Below the pieces are notes generated by a model. That model searched no databases and was not told the DNA's origin. It saw only the letters and a program-made list of their open reading frames with translations. A DNA stretch of 29,040 nt, taken from a virus. Of this stretch, positions 11,797-29,040 are shown one piece after another. A program made the translations under genes and the position numbers. Where the stretch lies: positions 1 to 29,040 of IMG/VR virus record IMGVR_UViG_3300044613_001457; one strand, written 5' to 3'. Every line of letters starts with the position of its first letter. Position 1 is the stretch's first letter.

Positions 11797-14700
11797 TTAA
11801 AACGTACCACCAGAAATACCACCAGTAGCGACTATTGCGGCGGCTGTGGTGACCCTTCCTGTTCCTTTGGGTGTTAGTGCTAGGTCTATGTTGGTGTCAC
11901 CGCCTGATGTCGAAAGATTAGGAGCAGCACCAGTAACAGCACCAGAAACATTTAAGTTGTTAACGCTATTAGCGGTGTGTGAAACCGTAAATTGTGTGTT
12001 ACCCGTACCCGAGCCAGAATAGTTTGTAGAAAACGCAATGACCTGAGTACCTTTACTGGCGACTCGCAAGACAATGTTTGCATCAGAACCCTGTGCCGAA
12101 ATAACCGGCGCTGCCGTAGTAGCCGCACCCGTCACCTGTACATAGTTCACCGCAGAGGCGGTGTGGGCTACGCGGAATTGCTCTGTTCCCAATGTATTGT
12201 TGGTGTTGAAACGAAATGAACCAGAACCTTTTACTCTGAAATTTAGCGGTATGTTTGTGTCTGTTCCAACAGTGGTGACTATTGGGCCGTTTGTAGCGGT
12301 CGCTCCTTGTATTTCTAAATAATTTACAGTTGATGCGACATTTAAAACTCGCAAGCCTTCGCCACCGGCACTACCACCTAAACTCGTTTGCCCCGTAGCA
12401 GTCAATGTGGTGAACGTACCGGCATCAGGAGTGGTACCACCTATCGGCCCAGGAGACGCAGGATCAAATGCCGCATTCCATGTGAATGCCGATCCACTCC
12501 ACGAGAGATTGGTGTTAGCAACCGTTGGCGCAGTAATGAACGAAGTCGTTCCCGATGCGGTGTTGTAAACAATCTGGCCTGCTCCACCGCCAGCGACATT
12601 GGTCGCAACCCCCACCGTAACTCCTGCAGGATCACTCCACTGCGGCGCGGTTCCAGAAGATGTGAGAAGGTATGTGCTGGTACCAATAGCGAGCTTTGAT
12701 AGCGCCGTACCGGTCGCGTAATAAACCAGATCTCCTGCAGTGTATGTAGATAGCCCCGTACCGCCATTGCCGGTGGCCAAGGTTCCCGTGATGGCCCCTG
12801 ACTGATCGAGCGCTACCGCACCAAACCCGATTGAGGTGCCAGACCGACGCAAGACCTGATAGTCAGACGCGGCGGTGATGTCTGCCACATTGCCTGTGCT
12901 GTTCGTTGATCTTCCGACCACCGAGAGACCCGCAGACTGTCTAAAGAGCGCGTCTGTGATGCCGTTAGTCGTAACAGAAAACTGCGTGCCGGTAAGCGTT
13001 AGTCCCGTGCCGGCAGAATAGATCTGCGCAGACGATATCTGCACAAATGTGATGGGCGTTGTACCAAAGACGATCGTGCCAACGGTATTGCAGAGATAAA
13101 GCTCACCGGCACCGGTGTCACCTTCTTGCACGAATACGGTGGAGCCTTCTCCCAAGGTGTCTGGGCTTGCTAGACCATATGTGTCTGCGTCAGTGGCCCG
13201 TGTCAATTCCCAGTTTGTTGAGATTGAACCGACATCGCTCACATAGTAAATGCCGTTTTGTGTCTGATCTGTCTGGGTATAAATTAAAACCCGATCGTTA
13301 AGGCTCAAAGTGACGCCATCAATTACGAGCGCAGCCTGGGTGCCAGCGTTGGTCAGCGTCGCTCCTACCCCGGATGCGCCATTGTTGTATGTAGCGTTGA
13401 GGTTTATTGGCGACTCAACCCGTACAGGCGCGTGATAGTGGATTCCAGATACGACCAGACCGTCCACATATTGCTTAGTGGCAAGATCAAGCGCATTAGT
13501 TGGGTTTTGAGTGACCGTTACTGTTGTCAGGCCACCAAGAGTCAACGAAGACGAACCAAGCGATATAGAAGTGGTTCCAATCGTGACAGCACTGTTGTCG
13601 AGCGCCGCATTCGGTATGCTCGTGAAATTGGTACCAGTCAACGATGGAGCGGTGCTGTAAGACGGTGTCGTACCCCCCACCAAAACCCCCGAGGAGGTGG
13701 CCAACATCGCTGTGACGCCCGATGCGGTTTGATAGGGGATAGAACCCGCTGCTCCGCCTGCAAGATTTGTAGATGTGGTGGCGTTTGTTGCTAGACCGAC
13801 GGTGACCGACGCAGGATCAACATATTCAGGAGCAGATGCTCCGGCACGCAATAAGTATGTTGATGTTCCAAGAGGTAGGAACGTGCTGGCGTTGACTCCG
13901 GTCTGATAAGAAATAGATCCAGCAGTACCACCTTGCAGGTTCGTTGCAACTGTTGCTATGCCTATTGTTACTGTTGCGGGATCAACATATTCGGGAAGGA
14001 ATGCACCGGCACGCAACAAATAATCTTGCGGCCCTAATGGCAAAAAATTAGTGATTGAAACGTTTGATTGATATGGAAGAGATCCAGGCGCTCCGCCATC
14101 AATGTTAGTAGCAGACCCTATAAGTATGGTTGTTGGATCACTCCATTGAGGCACCGAACCGCTAGACGTAAGTACGTAATTTGAACCACCAATTGGTAAC
14201 CTTGAAAAACTTGAGCCGGCGCTGTAGTACAAAATATCGCCAGCAGCAAAAGTATCTAAACCAATACCACCACGTTCAATCGGAAAAATTCCACTAACTG
14301 TTTGAAAGGCGTCAATTTGTATAGAAATATTATTGGCGCTAGTAATTTGCCCCTGAGGATTAATTGTCAACTGCGGAACAGAATCGGTAAAGCCATAAAC
14401 ATTTGCAAAAACTCCGGTGTCCGCAATTGAAATGGTTCCGCTAGTCGTAATCGGGCCACCGGTTAATCCCGTACCAGTGTTTATTTGCGTCACCGCGCCA
14501 GACGGAAGCGTGGACCATCCGCCGGTCGTATCAAAAGTCTCGTAGGCGCTCGTCTCGGTATTAAACCGAATCATCCCGTCTATGCCACTTGGCCGCTGCG
14601 CAGTCGTTCCTTTGGGAATAGTGACTGCTCCGGTACCAGGGAGAATAGGGTCAGTCGTAATAGAGATCGTCGGATTCCCGATTCCTAGGCCATTCGCAAC

Positions 14701-20231: not shown

Positions 20232-21146
20232 TTAAACGCCGGGCGTGCCGTACATCGCACGGGGATCAGTGAAGCCAACGTCATAACGCTCCGTGGCCTT
20301 GTAACGCATGGAATCGGTCTCAAAATCACCTTCCATGGTCTTCTCAAGCGAACGGCGCATGAGCAGCTTCATACCCTCAGGAGCGTCAGTCTGGACCCAC
20401 CAAGCGTTGGCTGAGGTAAGACGCGACAGAACAGCAGCACCCTCGTCGAGCAGTCCGATGGACTTGATCGGGTTGATGTCGTTGTTCGCGTTACCAGCAC
20501 GCAAGACGGATTTCAGGAGCACCTCGGCTTGGAAGACGTTGCCCGGGGCCACCACCAATTGGCGGGGAACCAGACGGATCTTCTTGCCGTTGTTGTCCAC
20601 GGCCTGACGGATCTGGATGAGCATCTGCTCAAGCGAGGTCTGCGACAGGTTCGCGGGCGTAGTCAGCAGGTTGCTGAAAGTGCCGTTGACGATCGGGTGT
20701 GAAGCGGAGTTCAGCTGAACGCCGTCACCGCCGGGGTACGCGCTGTTAAAGGCGCGGTTAAGCACGTTGGCCGAGAGCGTCTCTTTGGTCTCAATCAGGG
20801 ACTGAGCCAAGTGACGCGCATAAACCTGACCAATGCGGATGTGGTCGCCGTCCTCCACGAGCACTTTGGTCAATGCGAAGGCGAGGCCATACACACTGTA
20901 TACATAGCGCTTGAGGAAGAGCACGCCGCCCTGCTGGTACGATACCGGGGTACCGTCAGGCAGTTGGGGCGCGGCGCCAAATCCGTACAGGACTGGCTCT
21001 TCGTGATAGTTACGGGGAATCCCTTGCTCCTCACGGAACACGCGGGACCACTCATCTTTACGTTGGTCGTAAACACCGTCGAAGCATTCATTGAGGATAG
21101 GCTCAACAATACTCCGAAAGTCTGTACTGCGCATCGGGGCTGCCAT
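20232..21146 (-). CDS. Major capsid protein (HK97-fold, Mu gpT-like class)
   Basis: This 304-aa protein starts at an ATG with AAGGAGG eight bases upstream, the strongest ribosome site in the window, as expected for an abundant capsid subunit. The N-terminal helical segment (RSTDFRSIVEPILNECFDGV) and EWSRVFREEQG precede a P-domain-like stretch (HIRIGQVYARHLAQSLIETKE) and LNSASHPIVNGTFSNLLTTP. KKIRLVPRQLVVAPGNVFQA then matches the loop in Mu gpT-like capsid proteins (usually about 300 aa). A scaffold candidate and decoration-like gene lie upstream, and there is no visible protease gene between them. It forms the icosahedral shell. Confidence 0.88.
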   Translation of the reverse strand: MAAPMRSTDFRSIVEPILNECFDGVYDQRKDEWSRVFREEQGIPRNYHEEPVLYGFGAAPQLPDGTPVSYQQGGVLFLKRYVYSVYGLAFALTKVLVEDGDHIRIGQVYARHLAQSLIETKETLSANVLNRAFNSAYPGGDGVQLNSASHPIVNGTFSNLLTTPANLSQTSLEQMLIQIRQAVDNNGKKIRLVPRQLVVAPGNVFQAEVLLKSVLRAGNANNDINPIKSIGLLDEGAAVLSRLTSANAWWVQTDAPEGMKLLMRRSLEKTMEGDFETDSMRYKATERYDVGFTDPRAMYGTPGV

Positions 21147-21158
21147 GACTTATCCTCC

Positions 21159-21782
21159 TTAAATGGCTGCAGGATAGTACTTGGTGCCGGTAATATCAAT
21201 AGCACCGTACTGGTATTCGGCGATAACGGCGCGAACAATGACATACGGATCACCCCAAGCATTGTCGGGATAAGGCGCGATATCAATGATGCGCATCTGA
21301 GCGTTGTTACCCGATCCAGCAGGTGTAATGCTGAGGGTCGCTTGCGACAGTCCCGTGGTCGTAGAACCAGCGGTCGTGTTGCTCAGATCAAACTCGTCAC
21401 CAATGGAGGTCTGTGGCAGAGTTCCAGCGGTCTGGATCTCGTACACAATATTGGGATCGCTGTAATAATATGCGATCACCGAACCGACCTGGAATGACTC
21501 GTTCGCGGGCCAATAGTTAGAAACGCGGCGACGGCCAGTGGCATCGGTCCACTCGACACCAGCGAAGGCGCCCAAAAAGGCGTCACCGGCTCCAGCGACC
21601 TCGATGTAACCGGCAGTGTTCATCTTGACCGGTTGCCCCTTAAGAATCGTGGTGGCGTAACCAGCCGAGACGTTGCCGCTCGTAGATACTGCTTGAATCC
21701 CGTTTGCAAGCGCCGAAGCACGGTCCAGACCCGAAGGATGGTAGGCTGGGCGCAAGCCAAAGGGAGCACTGGTAGCAGACAT
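21159..21782 (-). CDS. Head decoration/capsid-associated protein
   Basis: This 207-aa protein starts at an ATG with AGGAG eight bases upstream. The opening (TSAPFGLRPAYHPSG) matches a group of phage proteins encoded immediately before the major capsid gene. Strand-rich segments follow (ATTILKGQPVKMNTAGYIEV, DAFLGAFAGVEWTDATGRRR, FQVGSVIAYYYSDPNIVYEI). This is compatible with a small beta-barrel that decorates or stabilises capsid joints. No enzyme motif is present. Placement directly upstream of the capsid gene, with its own strong ribosome site, fits a high-copy head protein. The specific decoration role is inferred. Confidence 0.75.
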   Translation of the reverse strand: MSATSAPFGLRPAYHPSGLDRASALANGIQAVSTSGNVSAGYATTILKGQPVKMNTAGYIEVAGAGDAFLGAFAGVEWTDATGRRRVSNYWPANESFQVGSVIAYYYSDPNIVYEIQTAGTLPQTSIGDEFDLSNTTAGSTTTGLSQATLSITPAGSGNNAQMRIIDIAPYPDNAWGDPYVIVRAVIAEYQYGAIDITGTKYYPAAI

Positions 21783-21821: not shown

Positions 21822-22358
21822 TCATAAGAACACCGGCACGGGTTGAGGTTTTTCAAGTTCACTTGTACCCTCTTCGACCATTCCGAGAGGACGACCCCGG
21901 CTATCGCGCGGAAGGTTCTCAGCCTGAACCCGAATTTTATCGGCTTCGTCCTGAGGGGCATAATGGTGCAGCTCTTCCATAATCTGCTGGTAAATCTCTT
22001 GAGGCAGCTTATAGAGTAGCATTTCATTGCAAGCCACGAACCCTTCATGCTCCCCGGCTTTAACTTTGTAGTTTTCAAAGCCTGGAACTTCTTCGATTCG
22101 GACTGGCTGATAGCCCATGCGCATCCGTTTGTGAATCGGGTCATACCCGTTGGTGGTGGAAAGCCAGCACAAGTGAAACCCCGGAATATCCGGTGGCTTT
22201 GGGAGGGATTCTTGAATCCACTCATTGCGGAACATCCTACGACGCTCCTGTGCGCTTGCCATTTCATCCGTAGCCGAACCACGCAGATTTGCGTCCTGCA
22301 TCGCGCGGGACTCGCGTCCGCCTACTGATAAATCTTTTTTAAGTCTTTCGTCTTTCAT
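21822..22358 (-). CDS. Conserved-looking head-cluster protein of unknown function
   Basis: This 178-aa protein starts at an ATG with GAGGGG six bases upstream, one base after the scaffold gene's stop. The N-terminus is charged and helical (MKDERLKKDLSVGGRESRAM, then SAQERRRMFRNEW). A beta-like middle (PGFHLCWLSTTNGYDPIHKR, YQPVRIEEVPGFENYKVKAG, FVACNEMLLYKLP) and a helical end (EIYQQIMEELHHYAPQDEAD) follow. It lies between scaffold and decoration genes, where phages often place a head assembly factor. I do not recognise a named family and see no protease triad, so maturation protease is not supported. Confidence 0.72.
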   Translation of the reverse strand: MKDERLKKDLSVGGRESRAMQDANLRGSATDEMASAQERRRMFRNEWIQESLPKPPDIPGFHLCWLSTTNGYDPIHKRMRMGYQPVRIEEVPGFENYKVKAGEHEGFVACNEMLLYKLPQEIYQQIMEELHHYAPQDEADKIRVQAENLPRDSRGRPLGMVEEGTSELEKPQPVPVFL

Positions 22359-22360
22359 CT

Positions 22361-23320
22361 TTAGCCCCTCGTGCCATTCTGGCGGTCGTATTCCATGTAC
22401 TTGCGGATCATTTTCTTGCGCTCTTCAAGATTATCCCAGCGCCCAGCATCTTTGATGGCGCGGACACGCTCGGGTGACAGCCTGAACTCGCTGCCGCCTG
22501 CTGATACGCTGCCTTCTCGACCTGACCCAGTAACCACGGAACGGGGTTTCCTATTAATGGACGAAGACCTATCGTCGTTCGACGAATTATAACGGTGCGG
22601 AAGGTATTTTGTCAATCTACTATCGAGCTCCTCCCAATACTCCTCACTGGTGGGATCATATCCCTCCTCGGTCAGAGCCTCGTCCACCTTAATTGCAACC
22701 TTCGAGTCGAGGTCCTTCCCGTTAGGGTCGTACCATTCATTGCGCGCCATCCAGTTCGAAGCGAGCTTCTTGAGGCGCGGATCGGGTGCTTTAGGTACCG
22801 AAGAGCCGTCCGAATTATTTACCGCGCGCTTTTTGAGGGCTTCGAGGGCCTCGGCTTGGCGTCGAGCCTCGTACCACTGTTCCTGAGCATCCGCCAAAGC
22901 CTGTCCGTCGGCAAGCTCCGTGGCCTTTTTGATCTCCATCTTGGCGAATTGCAGCTTCAGATGGGAGTCTTCGATCGCCTTGTCCAGCCGAGCCATATCC
23001 GAACCCGCCGTCCGCTTCTCCAGGACCGACAAACGCTCGGCCATCTGCTCGTTCTGACGCCGAAGCTGGTTGATCAGCTGCTGCGACTCACTGATCTTGG
23101 CCTTCGTGAGCTGCTTCTTGAGCTGTCGCTCCTCTCGCCGCGCCGCCCGAATAGCTTGCCGTTCCGGATCGACCTCCTCGGACCCCTCCGAACTATCTTC
23201 GTGGTCCTCCGAATCCCCCGCCGGGGGGTCCTGGGGCGATGATTCACCCTCCGGAAGCTGCACGACCGCCGAGCCGTCCTGCTCCTCGGCCACCTGTAAA
23301 TCTTTGTCCTGTTCACTCAT
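22361..23320 (-). CDS. Scaffolding-protein-like coiled-coil protein
   Basis: This 319-aa protein has an acidic Ser/Glu/Asp-rich N-terminus (residues 1-52). A long coiled-coil region follows at about 53-170, containing ERQLKKQLTKAKISESQQL and LRRQNEQMAERLSVLEKR. The C-terminal part is more mixed (PRLKKLASNWMARNEWYDPN, SEEYWEELDSRLTKYLPHRY) and ends in a basic helix (RWDNLEERKKMIRKYMEYDR). Acidic plus coiled-coil plus basic C-terminal helix, two genes upstream of decoration and capsid, is the expected build of a phage capsid scaffold. The ATG overlaps the co-chaperonin TGA (ATGA). Role inferred from architecture and position; no sequence-specific signature. Confidence 0.75.
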   Translation of the reverse strand: MSEQDKDLQVAEEQDGSAVVQLPEGESSPQDPPAGDSEDHEDSSEGSEEVDPERQAIRAARREERQLKKQLTKAKISESQQLINQLRRQNEQMAERLSVLEKRTAGSDMARLDKAIEDSHLKLQFAKMEIKKATELADGQALADAQEQWYEARRQAEALEALKKRAVNNSDGSSVPKAPDPRLKKLASNWMARNEWYDPNGKDLDSKVAIKVDEALTEEGYDPTSEEYWEELDSRLTKYLPHRYNSSNDDRSSSINRKPRSVVTGSGREGSVSAGGSEFRLSPERVRAIKDAGRWDNLEERKKMIRKYMEYDRQNGTRG

Positions 23321-23751
23321 AGGAATGCCCTCACTTTCAGCGGATCTCCGGTGACCTTGGCGATCACCTCGTGGTCATTGAATACCGAGAAAAGGGCGGT
23401 CTCGCCTATCGTAGGATCTCCGAAAGGCACTTCCCAGCGATCGCCACCCCATTTCGGCACCCGAACGAAGTCTCCCACCTCGACCCAATTACCCTCGGGC
23501 CAGGGTTCGAGTGTGTCTCGTTTCTTAAATGCCAACGGACCCACGGCGATCACTTTTGCTACCTGATTGTTCCACTTCTCAGTCTCTTTTGTCTCTTCTA
23601 CAAGGACTATGCCTGAGGCAGTGGTCTTTTTGATCGTTTGACGCCATTGCACCAGAATACGACCTCCAACTGGTGCGGCACCCGGGTCCACCTCGGGAAA
23701 TGCTTCCCGTAACGCGGCTTCATTCGAAGCAACCGGTTCATTCATTATCAT
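23317..23751 (-). CDS. GroES-like co-chaperonin (phage-encoded Cpn10)
   Basis: This 144-aa protein carries the Cpn10 pattern. GGRILVQWRQTIKKTTASGIVLVEE at about residues 29-53 is the core strand plus mobile loop, and IVL at 48-50 is the tripeptide with which GroES contacts GroEL. Then VAKVIAVGP, WVEVGDFVRVPKWGGDRW and a closing strand (FNDHEVIAKVTGD) follow in GroES order. Residues 1-28 are an extra acidic N-terminal extension absent from bacterial GroES (about 97 aa). The likely role is to cap host GroEL and help fold phage capsid or related proteins, as T4 gp31 does. It sits between portal-linked small genes and scaffold. Starts at 23751 or 23745 (both ATG) differ by two residues; AGGA five bases upstream favours the first. 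Confidence 0.85.
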   Translation of the reverse strand: MIMNEPVASNEAALREAFPEVDPGAAPVGGRILVQWRQTIKKTTASGIVLVEETKETEKWNNQVAKVIAVGPLAFKKRDTLEPWPEGNWVEVGDFVRVPKWGGDRWEVPFGDPTIGETALFSVFNDHEVIAKVTGDPLKVRAFL

Positions 23752-23929
23752 CTGGTTCCTTTAATATCTCATCGAGTATATCCAGGGCTTTTGCAAGCCC
23801 TTGATGCTGGCCAACGAGGCGCTGGTAAGTCTCAAAATTTACCGCGTGACCCTCGACGAGTGATTGAGAAATTCGACCTTGCTCGGCCTTCACCATAGAG
23901 ATGAACTCCGAAGTCGACCGAACTAGCAT
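23738..23929 (-). CDS. Small helical protein of unknown function
   Basis: This 63-aa protein is almost entirely predicted helix (EFISMVKAEQGRISQSLVEG, NFETYQRLVGQHQGLAKALD, ILDEILKEPDDNE). The ATG directly follows the TAA of the 59-aa protein, and the 3' end overlaps the co-chaperonin start region by 14 bases. Short helical proteins at this position (between portal and head-assembly genes) occur in other podoviruses; the function is unknown to me. There is no membrane segment or metal site. Confidence 0.68.
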   Translation of the reverse strand: MLVRSTSEFISMVKAEQGRISQSLVEGHAVNFETYQRLVGQHQGLAKALDILDEILKEPDDNE

Positions 23930-24109
23930 TTACTTCGACTTCACGCGGGCAAGAGCGCCCTGGGAAGCGTTACCACGGGTGTTGGAAGACGACTTCTTGC
24001 CTTCATTACCCTTGGCCTGCAGCGAGGTGCCGGAAATCTTTGCACCCATCGCGAGACGGGCATGCTGCCGCACCGCTTCGCTCATTTGCTCTTGATCAGA
24101 GGTTGCCAT
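23930..24109 (-). CDS. Small basic 59-aa protein overlapping the portal 3' end
   Basis: An ATG at 24109 opens a 59-codon frame ending TAA directly before the next ATG. AAGGAG lies eight bases upstream (24118-24123), a strong ribosome site. The start overlaps the last 14 bases of the portal gene in another frame. The protein begins MATSDQEQMSEAVRQHARLA and ends in a low-complexity basic tail (GNEGKKSSSNTRGN, then ALARVKSK). I recognise no family. Position and ribosome site argue it is genuine, even though it is very short. Without it, 166 bases between portal and the 63-aa gene would be non-coding. Confidence 0.72.
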   Translation of the reverse strand: MATSDQEQMSEAVRQHARLAMGAKISGTSLQAKGNEGKKSSSNTRGNASQGALARVKSK

Positions 24110-26639
24110 TTTGAGGACTCCTTAAGGTCTCAGATGCGCCTTGCAGCGCGGTTAATGCAGCCAACTGCTGCTCCTGCTGCAAAGCCACCGTGTCTCGGGT
24201 GATCTCTGCAGTCTTGATTCGTTCGTCGGTAAGATTATCCGACGCATTCAGCGCGATCTTTATCTGCTGCTCCCGGTTCGCGCGTATTGCCTCCTGGATC
24301 ATTCGCTCTTTTTCGAGCGCGAGATCTGCCTTGTCCTTTTCCGCCCGCCGCTTCGTCTCGGCCATAGACGTTTCCAGAATGACGCGATCACCACCGTCCA
24401 TCGGCGGCTTCGGCGCGAGCTGCGCCATAACTTGCTGGAGCTGCTGGATGGCGGGCATGACCTTCGCAAATGATTCCTCAACATCAAGAATAGTATGCTG
24501 AGAAGCCAAAGCATAAAGCTTATCAATATCACCTGTAATTCCAGCGATGTGGTAATCTTTAACTTTTCCTCCAAGCGACTCCTCCACATATCCGTTCATG
24601 TGGTTAATGTACCAGAGCATGAGGTGCTGTTTCAAGTGTTCCATTACCATCGGCAGGTACGTAGGTGCAATCATCGGGTTGCTACCCAACATCGGATTCA
24701 ACGCGTAGTCCAGGTGCGCCTGAATGTGTGCAAACTGATTCTGGTGCGGGTACGCGTAGGCAGCACGACCTACCGACATTGCGGCGTTCTCCTCGGCGGC
24801 GTTGATCTCCATAGGCTCGGCCACCGCAGGCATCAATTCGGTGATGTTGGGGATCTTCATTTGCTTCAACGCCCGGTACACCACCGCTCGCTTGTCGAAA
24901 AGCTCCGGGTGCTTGTCCATGTATGCCATGACCGCCTGATTCTGCGCCATCCGTTGCGTTTCGGAGAAGATGTGCGGATCGGACACAGGGATCACGTCGG
25001 ATGAGCGATTAAAGTCCTCGCGCCGAATTTCGAGGTTCGTCGGGGTCTCACCGCCAATCATGTCGTCCAGGTACCAGCGGTTGATACGCTGCAGGATCAT
25101 GAGCGCCCTGCGCTGCGACTCGTGCAATCGGGCGTGAATCGCCGAGAACACCGCCGCACCCTGCTCGATCAACGCCTGGGTGGTGCCGACGGGGGCCGTG
25201 CTAGTGATGTCGGCGATCTTCTCTTCCGAGGTCGTGACTACGCCCTTCGCCGCTGAGGTAAGCCAGCCCAGGAGCTTGAAGAGGGTCTCGCTCGGTGGGT
25301 TGAATGGCATCGGCATAGCGATCTTGCGGATGTCGTCCACGCCCGGTGCGCCCTCGATCTCGGTCACCTGAGTGACGTCGACCGACTGGGACTGACCTGA
25401 AATCTTCGCCCCTTTGAGCTTCAGCATCGTGGCCGAATTGTTGATGTGCGCTGTATCGAGCAACGCACGCAATGCGCCGGTAAGTGCGGCGGACAGCCCA
25501 CCAATCAGGTGCGGCAGTCCAATCGCGTAGGCGCCACGCCAGGGAATGAACTTGTACTCGACCACCCAGTCTAGCTTGGTCATCGTCGGGTCGCCCTGCT
25601 CCCAATTGCGGTACAGGCCCACGACCTCGGTGTCCATTTCGTCGATCATGAGGATGTAGGGCGCGTATTGCTCCTCGGAGAACTTGTCGCCCTGCAGCTC
25701 CATGTAGCAGTAAATGTGATACACACGACGCACGCCGTCTTCGTTCTCGTTCGGCGTCTTGCCTTCGATCTTGTTCGTAGCCTTTTGGGCCTCGGACTCT
25801 TCGGGTTCCATCGTGGCCCGGACGATTGACACGTCACGATACAGGCCCGAGTCGATGCGCTCCTGGAAAGTCTGCTGTGTGATGTCGTGGATCTCAGTCG
25901 CGCGCTGCGCGGTGTAGAAATTGTTCGACGCAAAAGGCAGCAGCACGTTGTCAATCGGCAGAAACTCGACGTCAGGGCGACGCAGGCGAGCATCCCACCA
26001 GAATTTCAGGTACTGCGAGCCACCCAACGGCAGCTGCGTAAGCAAAATCTCCTGCTCATCGCGGAAATTCGGGATCTGCTCGGTGAGCTGCCAGTTCATG
26101 AAATCGCGCTTGCGCTCGGCCCGCTTCGTCTGCTCCTCGGTTGCCTCACCTACCACGTGCGTGCGCACTGGACCATCGGGCGGGAACAGTTCTTTGATCG
26201 CCCGTGCCTCGAAGTCTACACAGGCCTCGGCCATCACCGGGTGCACCACCTTGCTTGCGCCCTGGAAGTCAGCACCACCCGGCGCGTCATTTCCAAGACC
26301 CGTGCGGCGAATGCCCTCTTCGTACTGCTTGTCCCGATCCTTTCGTGCCTGCTTGTCCTTCTCGATCAGCTCCAGATAGCGCAGCGCAAGCTTCTGCAGG
26401 TCATACTCGGGCAGCGTGTCGGCCAGATTCTGGTAAAAGTCCTCGTCCTCGTTCGGCCCTTTGAACTCGTTCATGCGGACGATCGCCGACCCATCGGGCT
26501 GCTCCTCGACCTCAGCGAATTCCTCCTCAAGGTCCACGAGCATGCCGTCCTCGTCTTCCTCCTCAGGCATCATGCCCTCATCGGGCATCATTTCCTCGTC
26601 ATCGACGGGCATTTGCGGTTGTGGGAATTCAATAGCCAT
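24096..26639 (-). CDS. Portal protein (P22-type, long helical barrel)
   Basis: This 847-aa protein has an acidic N-terminal extension (residues 1-50), then a portal core. FQGASKVVHPVMAEACVDFEA at about 124-145 and ELFPPDGPVRTHVVGEATEE are hallmark P22-class portal segments. Further core motifs are LPLGGSQYLKFWWDARLRRP, VEFLPIDNVLLPF, YKFIPWRGAYAIGLPHLIGG and LDTAHINNSATMLKLKGAKI. Residues about 725-847 are an uninterrupted charged helix (ETSMAETKRRAEKDKADLAL, MIQEAIRANREQQIKIALNA), corresponding to the coiled barrel that P22 portals project into the capsid. It forms the dodecameric ring for DNA packaging and tail attachment. It lies two genes after the terminase. Confidence 0.9.
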   Translation of the reverse strand: MAIEFPQPQMPVDDEEMMPDEGMMPEEEDEDGMLVDLEEEFAEVEEQPDGSAIVRMNEFKGPNEDEDFYQNLADTLPEYDLQKLALRYLELIEKDKQARKDRDKQYEEGIRRTGLGNDAPGGADFQGASKVVHPVMAEACVDFEARAIKELFPPDGPVRTHVVGEATEEQTKRAERKRDFMNWQLTEQIPNFRDEQEILLTQLPLGGSQYLKFWWDARLRRPDVEFLPIDNVLLPFASNNFYTAQRATEIHDITQQTFQERIDSGLYRDVSIVRATMEPEESEAQKATNKIEGKTPNENEDGVRRVYHIYCYMELQGDKFSEEQYAPYILMIDEMDTEVVGLYRNWEQGDPTMTKLDWVVEYKFIPWRGAYAIGLPHLIGGLSAALTGALRALLDTAHINNSATMLKLKGAKISGQSQSVDVTQVTEIEGAPGVDDIRKIAMPMPFNPPSETLFKLLGWLTSAAKGVVTTSEEKIADITSTAPVGTTQALIEQGAAVFSAIHARLHESQRRALMILQRINRWYLDDMIGGETPTNLEIRREDFNRSSDVIPVSDPHIFSETQRMAQNQAVMAYMDKHPELFDKRAVVYRALKQMKIPNITELMPAVAEPMEINAAEENAAMSVGRAAYAYPHQNQFAHIQAHLDYALNPMLGSNPMIAPTYLPMVMEHLKQHLMLWYINHMNGYVEESLGGKVKDYHIAGITGDIDKLYALASQHTILDVEESFAKVMPAIQQLQQVMAQLAPKPPMDGGDRVILETSMAETKRRAEKDKADLALEKERMIQEAIRANREQQIKIALNASDNLTDERIKTAEITRDTVALQQEQQLAALTALQGASETLRSPQNGNL
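24118..24123 (-). promoter_or_regulatory. Shine-Dalgarno (AAGGAG) that identifies the 59-aa gene start
   Basis: AAGGAG lies eight bases upstream of the ATG at 24109, within the last codons of the portal gene. It is the main support for the short overlapping gene. Confidence 0.65.
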
Positions 26640-26648
26640 GATTGTGCC

Positions 26649-27866
26649 TTAATCTAAAAGATCGCCAAAATCGTCGCCATGCTCTTGGGCGAGATCGCGA
26701 AGCTCATCACCATACGCGTCGCCCAGAAAATCATCAATGTCGCGCGATACCTGTTTAAGCTTCTCGTAGTGCTCGGGGTTCAGTTCTCTCACCTGCCGCA
26801 GGACTTGCCTTAGGTCTTGACTGCGCTTGATGTCCATCATGTCCATCATCAGACCTAAGGGGCCAGGAGACTCACGATACACGCCCGCTATGTCGAATGA
26901 TTCGGGATCTGCCATGTCAAGAATTCTAATACGAAGATTGTCCTCGCCTTCCTCGGTGCGCGGACGCATGCGGGGCTTTTGCGCTATGACTCGCTCCATC
27001 AAATCGTCGCCACTCAATTCGACTCCTGCATCCCGAGCCTCTTTGATCGCCTTGGCTATCATTGCCTGAACCGAAAGCGGGGCTGCCATTGCAGCTTTAG
27101 CGGGACTTAATGCCGGTTGGGTAATTGCCTGCTCAATGACCCCTGTGGGTGACCCTGCTGCCTTGACAAGAGCACCCAGCGCGCCACGCGGTGCCATAGC
27201 AGAGATCGCTTGACCAGCGCCAGCTCGCAGCACGTCACGACGGCTCATCGGTATGTTCATCGCCTCAGTGAGCGACACGGAGGTTTCGCCCTTCTTCGGG
27301 GCCTTCTTGACCTCTTCCTTCACCACTACCTCACCCGGCTTGGGCGTCAGGTCCTTGGGCAGGCCGAGTGCGGCACGACGGCCAGGGTCAGGCTGATCCT
27401 TGGTGGGCTTAGGCTTTGCTTTGCTGCTGCCCTTTAGGATTTCGGCCAGGAGGTCCACGACCTTGCCGCCTTTAGCATAGCGCTGCGCCTCGACCGCATC
27501 CAAGATCGACGAAAGCTCATCTGCCTGCGGCTGCATGCGCTGCCCCAATGCACGACCGGCACGCGCTGCACCCTGCGCCATTGGTGCCACTGTACCCGCA
27601 CCAAATAGCGCCTCCATCAGGTACTCGCGATCAGCGGTCATCGGAATGCGTGACCCCGTGCCTGCCGGTGCCTGACGAAAGAACGGGTCGCCGTAGCTAA
27701 GTTTCTCCAGGAATTCGGACGACACAGGCAGGAAGATGTCGAGCGGCAGCTCGGCGTACTTATCAATCGCTCCCTCGACGCTTGCCAGCGCTTTTGCGGC
27801 GCGCGCTAAAGCGGCATTTTGCTTCGGTGCACGAAGCTCGGGTACTTTACGGTCATCAGACGGCAT
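26649..27866 (-). CDS. Virion-region protein of unknown function with internal SRRDVLR motif
   Basis: This 405-aa protein lies between terminase and portal; its ATG overlaps the terminase end by 11 bases. The N-terminal 130 residues are helical and Ala-rich (ALARAAKALASVEGAIDKYA, TVAPMAQGAARAGRALGQRM). Residues 135-200 form a Lys/Pro-rich linker (KGSSKAKPKPTKDQPDPG, VVVKEEVKKAPKKG). Then SRRDVLRAGAGQAISAMAPR at about 208-227 resembles a twin-arginine or virion-membrane segment, followed by an Ala-rich weakly hydrophobic stretch. The C-terminal 130 residues are acidic and helical (LMMDMMDIKRSQDLRQVLRQ, DDFLGDAYGDELRDLAQEHG). No named family is recognised. Packaging, portal or ejection roles are possible from position. 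Confidence 0.75.
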   Translation of the reverse strand: MPSDDRKVPELRAPKQNAALARAAKALASVEGAIDKYAELPLDIFLPVSSEFLEKLSYGDPFFRQAPAGTGSRIPMTADREYLMEALFGAGTVAPMAQGAARAGRALGQRMQPQADELSSILDAVEAQRYAKGGKVVDLLAEILKGSSKAKPKPTKDQPDPGRRAALGLPKDLTPKPGEVVVKEEVKKAPKKGETSVSLTEAMNIPMSRRDVLRAGAGQAISAMAPRGALGALVKAAGSPTGVIEQAITQPALSPAKAAMAAPLSVQAMIAKAIKEARDAGVELSGDDLMERVIAQKPRMRPRTEEGEDNLRIRILDMADPESFDIAGVYRESPGPLGLMMDMMDIKRSQDLRQVLRQVRELNPEHYEKLKQVSRDIDDFLGDAYGDELRDLAQEHGDDFGDLLD

Positions 27867-29040
27867 AAGGGTTCACCTTTTGGCGACGCTCGTCCTCGTC
27901 GTAGTACTCGGACTCGGGCGGTGCGGGGTCAATCGAAAGGAAGGTCAGGTCGCGCAGCAAACGCAACGCCTGCGACACAGTGTCGGTCAAGTCATCACGC
28001 TGCGACTCGGGGAAAGAGCAGACCTGCGACACGAGAGGCTCGGCCCAATCACGCGGCTGGCCTGCGTGTTGTGTGGACTCAGGTATGTAGACGCGGCCAC
28101 GGGCGATTATGTTGGCCACCAAATGCAAGCGCTGCACCTTATCTGCCCGCCCCGGGTTGTACGCACGGCACGGGATCCCTGCGCGCTGCAGGTCCTGGAT
28201 GATCGAAATGCCTGCGGCCTTGTCCTCAACCAGCACCATGTCGACCTTTTTGCCCGGGTCGCCGTAGATCGAGCCGTACTCCTCGATGATCTTGGGTCGA
28301 AGGTCCGGGTAAGCCAGGAAGTCCTCCCAGCAGTCGATGAGCATGGCGCAAAAGGGCGAGTCATCATTGGGACGAAAGATGCCCCAGACGCTGCACGCGG
28401 TCGGGTCGTTGATCGTCTTCTCGGTGTAGGCGCAGTCGTAGGACTGCAGCACGTAAACGAACTCGGGGAAGGCGCGATCGGCAGGCCAGAGGCGAAACCA
28501 GTCGCGTTTGATGATGCCGTAATCCTCGGGGTCAATGACCTCGGCGTACAGCTCCTGGCGTCCGATGCGTGTGCCCTCGTACTGCGCAATAATTTCGTCG
28601 CGGAATGATGAGGCGAGATTGCCGAAATTCTCGTGCGTCGTGCCCGTGGTCAGGAACGTGCGATCGTCCTCCATCAGGCGACGAACGATCGGAATGGGCT
28701 TGGGCGTCGTAGTTACCACACCACGCGGTCGCACACCAAGACGCAGGCCGAACATGAGGTTCGACCACATCTCCTCGGTGTTGCGGAACTTGGCCAACTC
28801 GTCTACCCAGAACAGGTCGTGCTGCGGTCCCCGGAGCGTCTCGGGGTCATTGTCCGAGTAGATCGTGGCGATGGCGCCATTGGGCCACTCCAGGCGCCTC
28901 TTGGATGGCACGAAGGTAGGCTTACACTTGGGGTGCGAGATGGCCAGGATGCCTGACTCGCCCTCAATCATCACGTCGCGTGCGTCGCCCGCGTCCTCAG
29001 CGATCAGCGCAATGCGGGAGGCGAGCTGATTTTCGACGTG
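27856..29040 (-). CDS. terL: Terminase large subunit, partial (N-terminus off window)
   Basis: The frame stays open to the right window edge, giving 394 visible residues; the Walker A region is missing. ATG and GTG codons at 28971-28974 are internal and are not the true start, because the preceding 22 codons continue TerL-like sequence (ENQLASRIALIAEDAGDARD). Visible motifs are Walker B DLFWVDE with following acidic residues, coupling motif VVTTTPKP, and an RNase H-type nuclease domain with SYDCAY, LVEDKAAG and DDLTDTVSQAL supplying metal-binding Asp residues. The enzyme cuts concatemeric phage DNA and, with ATP, translocates it through the portal. It is the first gene in transcription order within this window. 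Confidence 0.93.
   Translation of the reverse strand, partial: HVENQLASRIALIAEDAGDARDVMIEGESGILAISHPKCKPTFVPSKRRLEWPNGAIATIYSDNDPETLRGPQHDLFWVDELAKFRNTEEMWSNLMFGLRLGVRPRGVVTTTPKPIPIVRRLMEDDRTFLTTGTTHENFGNLASSFRDEIIAQYEGTRIGRQELYAEVIDPEDYGIIKRDWFRLWPADRAFPEFVYVLQSYDCAYTEKTINDPTACSVWGIFRPNDDSPFCAMLIDCWEDFLAYPDLRPKIIEEYGSIYGDPGKKVDMVLVEDKAAGISIIQDLQRAGIPCRAYNPGRADKVQRLHLVANIIARGRVYIPESTQHAGQPRDWAEPLVSQVCSFPESQRDDLTDTVSQALRLLRDLTFLSIDPAPPESEYYDEDERRQKVNPYAV

Follow-up and report, generated by a model that had tools for sequence, protein, structure and literature searches.

An open reading frame of the GroES co-chaperonin type, lying between a phage portal gene and a capsid gene, raises two questions: whether it encodes a genuine GroES, and, if so, which proteins that GroES would help to fold. 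The locus lies on a viral record of 29,040 bases (hereafter the window), a length that marks it as a genome fragment. Its minus strand carries, in order, a terminase, a 405-aa protein, a portal, two small ORFs, groES, a putative scaffold, genes for proteins of 178 and 207 aa, and the major capsid protein (MCP) (Table 1). The second small ORF and the start of groES share 14 nt. Two Pfam profiles match the MCP above their cut-offs, Phage_capsid_4 at 46.9 bits and Mu-like_gpT at 26 bits. The 319-aa protein (36.2 kDa) is a putative scaffold, so designated from its place between portal and capsid and its highly charged sequence.

Table 1. Features of the head module and of the groES product; positions refer to the window, except in the last two rows, which refer to the loci named there.
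Feature	Position	Strand	Size	Evidence or remark
Terminase gene	27856-28974	minus		
Portal protein gene	24096..26639	minus	847 aa, 95.7 kDa	PHROG 1216 portal protein, 4.4e-13
Small ORF between portal and groES	23930-24109			
63-aa gene just upstream of groES	23738..23929	minus	63 aa	Retained in freshwater relatives
groES (Cpn10) gene	23317..23751	minus	144 aa, 16.0 kDa	Pfam Cpn10, PHROG 3188, AlphaFold/Foldseek
N-terminal extension, residues 1-26	23674..23751	minus	26 aa	Net charge -4; helix predicted at residues 10-17
I48-V49-L50 codons, hydrophobic tripeptide of the mobile loop	23602..23610	minus	3 aa	Predicted GroEL contact; alignment of relatives
Putative scaffolding protein gene	22361..23320	minus	319 aa	PHROG 28737, function unknown
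Conserved head-module gene	21822..22358	minus	178 aa	PHROG 36003; order kept in 107/107 loci
Conserved head-module gene	21159..21782	minus	207 aa	PHROG 37556; order kept in 107/107 loci
Major capsid protein gene	20232..21146	minus	304 aa, 33.7 kDa	Pfam Phage_capsid_4, Mu-like_gpT
Cpn10 relative with altered loop, L260 (Alcaligenes phage vB_Af_QDWS535)	3531-3872			
Cpn10 relative with altered loop, L295	3774-4091			

The first-pass annotation had read the ORF as a GroES homologue and proposed a Cpn10 HMM search as one check. With an ATG start and 144 codons, the ORF fills its assigned interval exactly, and a Shine-Dalgarno-like AAAGGAA precedes the ATG in a 100%-identical relative. Its product matches Pfam PF00166 (Cpn10) with an E value of 6.3e-8 and 33 bits (cut-off 21.1) over profile positions 3-91 of 93, as well as PHROG 3188, "co-chaperonin GroES" (2e-9). 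A profile of seven phage relatives, built without any bacterial GroES and hence not circular, retrieved solved Cpn10/GroES chains from bacteria, mitochondria, and chloroplasts at 1.9e-21 to 1.8e-6. The AlphaFold2 model, computed from 82 aligned sequences, has a beta-rich core (mean pLDDT 84.5, pTM 0.79). When this model was compared with the PDB using Foldseek, the top matches were all Cpn10/GroES (best E value 7.9e-7), with TM-scores by target of 0.53-0.73 across the 15 matches at E <= 0.001; T4 gp31 (1g31) was matched at 6.4e-4. The HMM match and the GroES fold together exclude the contrary outcome, in which neither would have been present. The gene is under purifying selection, with a median dN/dS of 0.088 in the freshwater clade, between that of the capsid gene (0.052) and those of neighboring genes (0.117-0.166). 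The ORF is thus a genuine Cpn10/GroES family gene of a freshwater phage.

The protein shares the core barrel and a mobile loop containing IVL with bacterial GroES (Escherichia coli, Mycobacterium tuberculosis, and Thermus thermophilus), and differs from them by an N-terminal helical extension, a loop region longer by five residues, an insert preceding the last strand, and a tail at the C-terminus. An acidic extension of 28 residues had been claimed; an extension exists and is mildly acidic, but it is shorter. In the alignment with E. coli GroES, Pro27 falls opposite Pro5, which places the N-terminus ~22 residues beyond that of the bacterial protein. Residues 1-26 include five acidic residues, and their net charge equals the median of 248 relatives. 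AlphaFold2 assigns the helix at residues 10-17 with high confidence, so the extension is more than a plain tail. The GroEL-contacting motif described in the first-pass annotation is present as IVL, and its three positions are hydrophobic in 82/82, 73/82, and 81/82 aligned relatives, respectively. The mobile loop (residues 41-60) has low AlphaFold2 confidence, as expected for a disordered loop, and forms the main uncertain stretch of the model besides both ends. Measured between equivalent anchors and re-read by hand, the mobile-loop region spans 32 residues against 27 in E. coli GroES, and in relatives it is mostly 3-5 residues longer than in E. coli. Two Cpn10 relatives adjoining a capsid gene (L260 and L295) lack the usual GGIVL and have a longer or rearranged loop. 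At the place of the GroES roof hairpin, the window protein retains a segment of ~18 residues, PLAFKKRDTLEPWPEGNW.

The location of the gene had been regarded as unusual. Within this lineage it is standard, the usual order being portal, groES, putative scaffold, two genes, and MCP: a scaffold homologue directly follows groES in all 224 relatives with enough flank, and the order groES, scaffold, two genes, MCP is complete in each of the 107 groES-anchored loci with at least 4.5 kb downstream, where the MCP start lies 2.0-2.3 kb past groES. Because those loci were selected by groES, the converse, capsid-anchored test was made. Two sets of loci, derived from two distant capsid proteins, include 90 whose upstream flank is 3.5 kb or longer, and all 90 encode Cpn10 on the same strand ~2 kb upstream of the MCP. 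Cpn10 is likewise present in 21 of 21 annotated phage records with a related MCP type, 18 times in the head cluster and three times elsewhere (MW202601, MW202604, and vir526), the last being the three most divergent records of the set. In vir526, the gene is upstream of the terminase, outside the head cluster. In the divergent capsid relative MW202601.1 (L435), it is found near a single-strand-binding protein gene (13699-14163), also outside the head cluster. MW202601-type records and vir526 had been candidates for capsid relatives without groES and were dropped when the whole-record Pfam search located Cpn10 elsewhere in them. The groES of the window is therefore ordinary for its lineage, a known gene type but the fixed companion of one entire capsid lineage, and this linkage gives good support to the earlier proposal that it is embedded in the head module and has a role tied to the capsid pathway. 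Such fixed pairing suggests that the phage needs its own GroES for folding head proteins.

Negative results from the whole-record Pfam search are not proof of absence, since it gave no Cpn10 for the window record, though hmmscan of the translated ORF exceeds the cut-off; L292 and L295 illustrate the point as well. The same caution applies to the rough base rate from an independent sample of viral contigs, each 20 kb or longer and chosen with an unrelated 15-mer, in which 3 of 40 carry Cpn10. Two of these three are the only contigs of the 40 that clearly match this MCP, a co-occurrence put at about 0.004 by a hypergeometric count made by hand. Distances between GroES proteins follow those between MCPs (Spearman 0.875), and correlations of about that strength with both are also seen for the scaffold and for the 207-aa gene. 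The groES-capsid linkage could reflect one module inherited together, not client specificity. A host assignment from MAG contigs was abandoned: the eight bins that contain relatives span Gammaproteobacteria, Betaproteobacteria, Chthonomonas, and Opitutae, as expected of mis-binned phage contigs.

Cpn60/GroEL (PF00118) was not found in 27 records (the window, 20 related viral contigs, and 6 complete phage genomes) by a search whose control matched in 14 of 14 genomes, a negative subject to the caution just given; host GroEL is thus the most likely partner. Since groES is so closely paired with the scaffold and capsid genes, their products are the likely clients. We therefore favor, with a probability of roughly 0.8, a phage Cpn10/GroES co-chaperonin that serves as a lid on host GroEL in the folding of phage head proteins. 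This reading is based on family, fold, conserved loop, purifying selection, and the fixed pairing with a capsid lineage. Seven copies would assemble into a dome, whose mobile loops would dock through IVL onto the apical domains of host GroEL, and the resulting hybrid cage would fold head proteins of the phage. The MCP is most likely the main client, and the neighboring scaffold, together with which the phage GroES would be made, is a possible one. The gene may have been retained because host GroES folds these clients worse or is too scarce for the capsid burst. A larger supply, an altered chemistry of the inner surface, or the N-terminal helix may be what the phage protein contributes. The first-pass annotation also held that a capsid protein or a fiber needs a modified GroEL chamber. 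Nothing here supports a fiber as client, and the need for an enlarged chamber does not follow: at its size the MCP would fit the ordinary GroEL-GroES cage, and both it and the scaffold are well under the mass of T4 gp23 (~56 kDa), which leaves the chamber-size argument weak. The literature yielded no experiments on this phage GroES family.

A different role is conceivable, though we consider it doubtful: the protein could be a general GroES booster for all late proteins, or during the shutdown of host synthesis, without any particular client, and would sit in the head module simply as a late-operon gene. The fold and loop resemble those of ordinary GroES, and the distant relatives with a relocated gene (MW202601 and vir526) would suit such a role, but groES stays with scaffold and capsid in every capsid-anchored and groES-anchored locus. 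In the Roseobacter phages CRP-901/902, moreover, ~9 kb part the portal from groES, yet groES, scaffold, and MCP stay together, and few other sampled viral contigs carry Cpn10, which further argues against a general function.

The closest experimental precedent is T4 gp31, which is essential for gp23 folding (PMC3012670, PMC6318259). GroES cannot substitute for it, which is usually put down to chamber size, although less obvious properties have been suggested as well (PMC3012670); the enlarged-chamber argument was made for gp23, a protein of about 56 kDa (PMC6318259). Like gp31 and RB49 CocO, the window protein is a phage-encoded Cpn10 fold with a lengthened mobile loop, and, as with gp31, a phage Cpn10 is present with no phage GroEL found in the 27 window-related records. 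Gene 31 is located among nonstructural genes, whereas the window groES belongs to the head module. As a refinement of the co-chaperonin reading, the protein could be a cage modifier like gp31, with the longer loop and extra parts producing a larger or chemically different chamber. This is a tentative proposal. It draws on the loop region, which exceeds that of E. coli GroES by five residues in the window protein and by 3-5 in nearly all relatives, as the gp31 loop is also longer (22 against 16; PMC6318259), and on the Foldseek match to gp31. It sits poorly with a capsid protein of 33.7 kDa, if the MCP is the client, in place of 56 kDa, with the very low sequence similarity to gp31, and with the long segment at the roof hairpin, which gp31 lacks and the window protein retains in some form.

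A broader version of the co-chaperonin reading is more speculative still. An entire lineage of tailed-virus capsids, found in phages of alpha-, beta-, and gammaproteobacteria and of cyanobacteria and perhaps in a methanogen virus, might depend on a phage-encoded GroES although its capsid protein is not unusually large, through chamber chemistry or the N-terminal helix and not through volume. If so, the phage lid of this capsid lineage would work unlike T4 gp31. Capture of a host gene without a capsid role, for example in stress or cold adaptation, as Southern Ocean viral GroES and GroEL have been interpreted (PMC8407431), is very improbable in view of a pairing extremely conserved in lakes and seawater and among hosts from several groups, and of groES distances that track the capsid gene.

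GroES genes of this lineage are already annotated in many records, including Caulobacter phage RW; a search of the open literature, with subscription papers largely outside its reach, found no report of the lineage-wide pairing with this capsid type. In Caulobacter phages RW, RLK, KcrB, and GB2A and Manatee Spring phage ctpbd312 (MW202545), which share synteny with the window, GroES is 56-59% and the capsid protein 76-89% identical to the window proteins, and the GroES differences fall in the mobile loop and the insert ahead of the last strand. In HTVC023P, HTVC027P, and CRP-901/CRP-902, groES likewise precedes scaffold and capsid. GroES proteins of HTVC023P-type pelagiphages and of CRP-901/902 are ~29-32% identical to that of the window, and their N-terminal extensions, of up to ~50 residues, are unrelated to it in sequence. 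GroES is one of the 13 core genes of HTVC023P-type phages (PMC9599517) and is labeled in CRP-901-type genomes (PMC10149686). Pseudoalteromonas siphovirus B8b also encodes GroES among structural genes, but directly before the tape measure gene, whereas the window groES is ahead of the capsid gene (PMC4294664). For T4 gp31, the usual account invokes client size. A large and globally common phage lineage in which a GroES gene is retained beside that for a 34 kDa capsid protein would offer a clean second case in which to ask what a co-chaperonin of phage origin contributes that host GroES does not, and the cultured Caulobacter phages make that question testable. The virus BK063670.1 (L434), attributed to Methanomicrobiales archaea, also carries an annotated groS near its terminase (42826-43182). 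GroEL is not expected in most archaea, so the partner of this groS is in doubt.

Co-expression of groES with the capsid pathway had also been suggested, and it holds in part. The groES stop and the scaffold ATG overlap as ATGA in the window and in 65 relatives, coupling the two genes. Extending this to the capsid gene is too strong, as there is a candidate separate promoter: a perfect sigma-70 consensus, TTGACA-18-TATAAT, on the minus strand at 22615-22586, inside the 3' part of the scaffold gene and ~230 nt ahead of the 178-aa gene. Judged by its sequence, the site may drive the capsid gene separately; if active, it would provide that gene, but not groES, with a promoter. Its position and synonymous codons are conserved in relatives. 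Within the freshwater clade, codon use at the site is skewed toward the promoter letters, with TTG in 49/53 (against a background of 25%) and ACA in 34/36 (against 21%), counts that come from related sequences and so are not independent. In other clades, a strong promoter-like site of their own is present between these two genes, scaffold and 178-aa.
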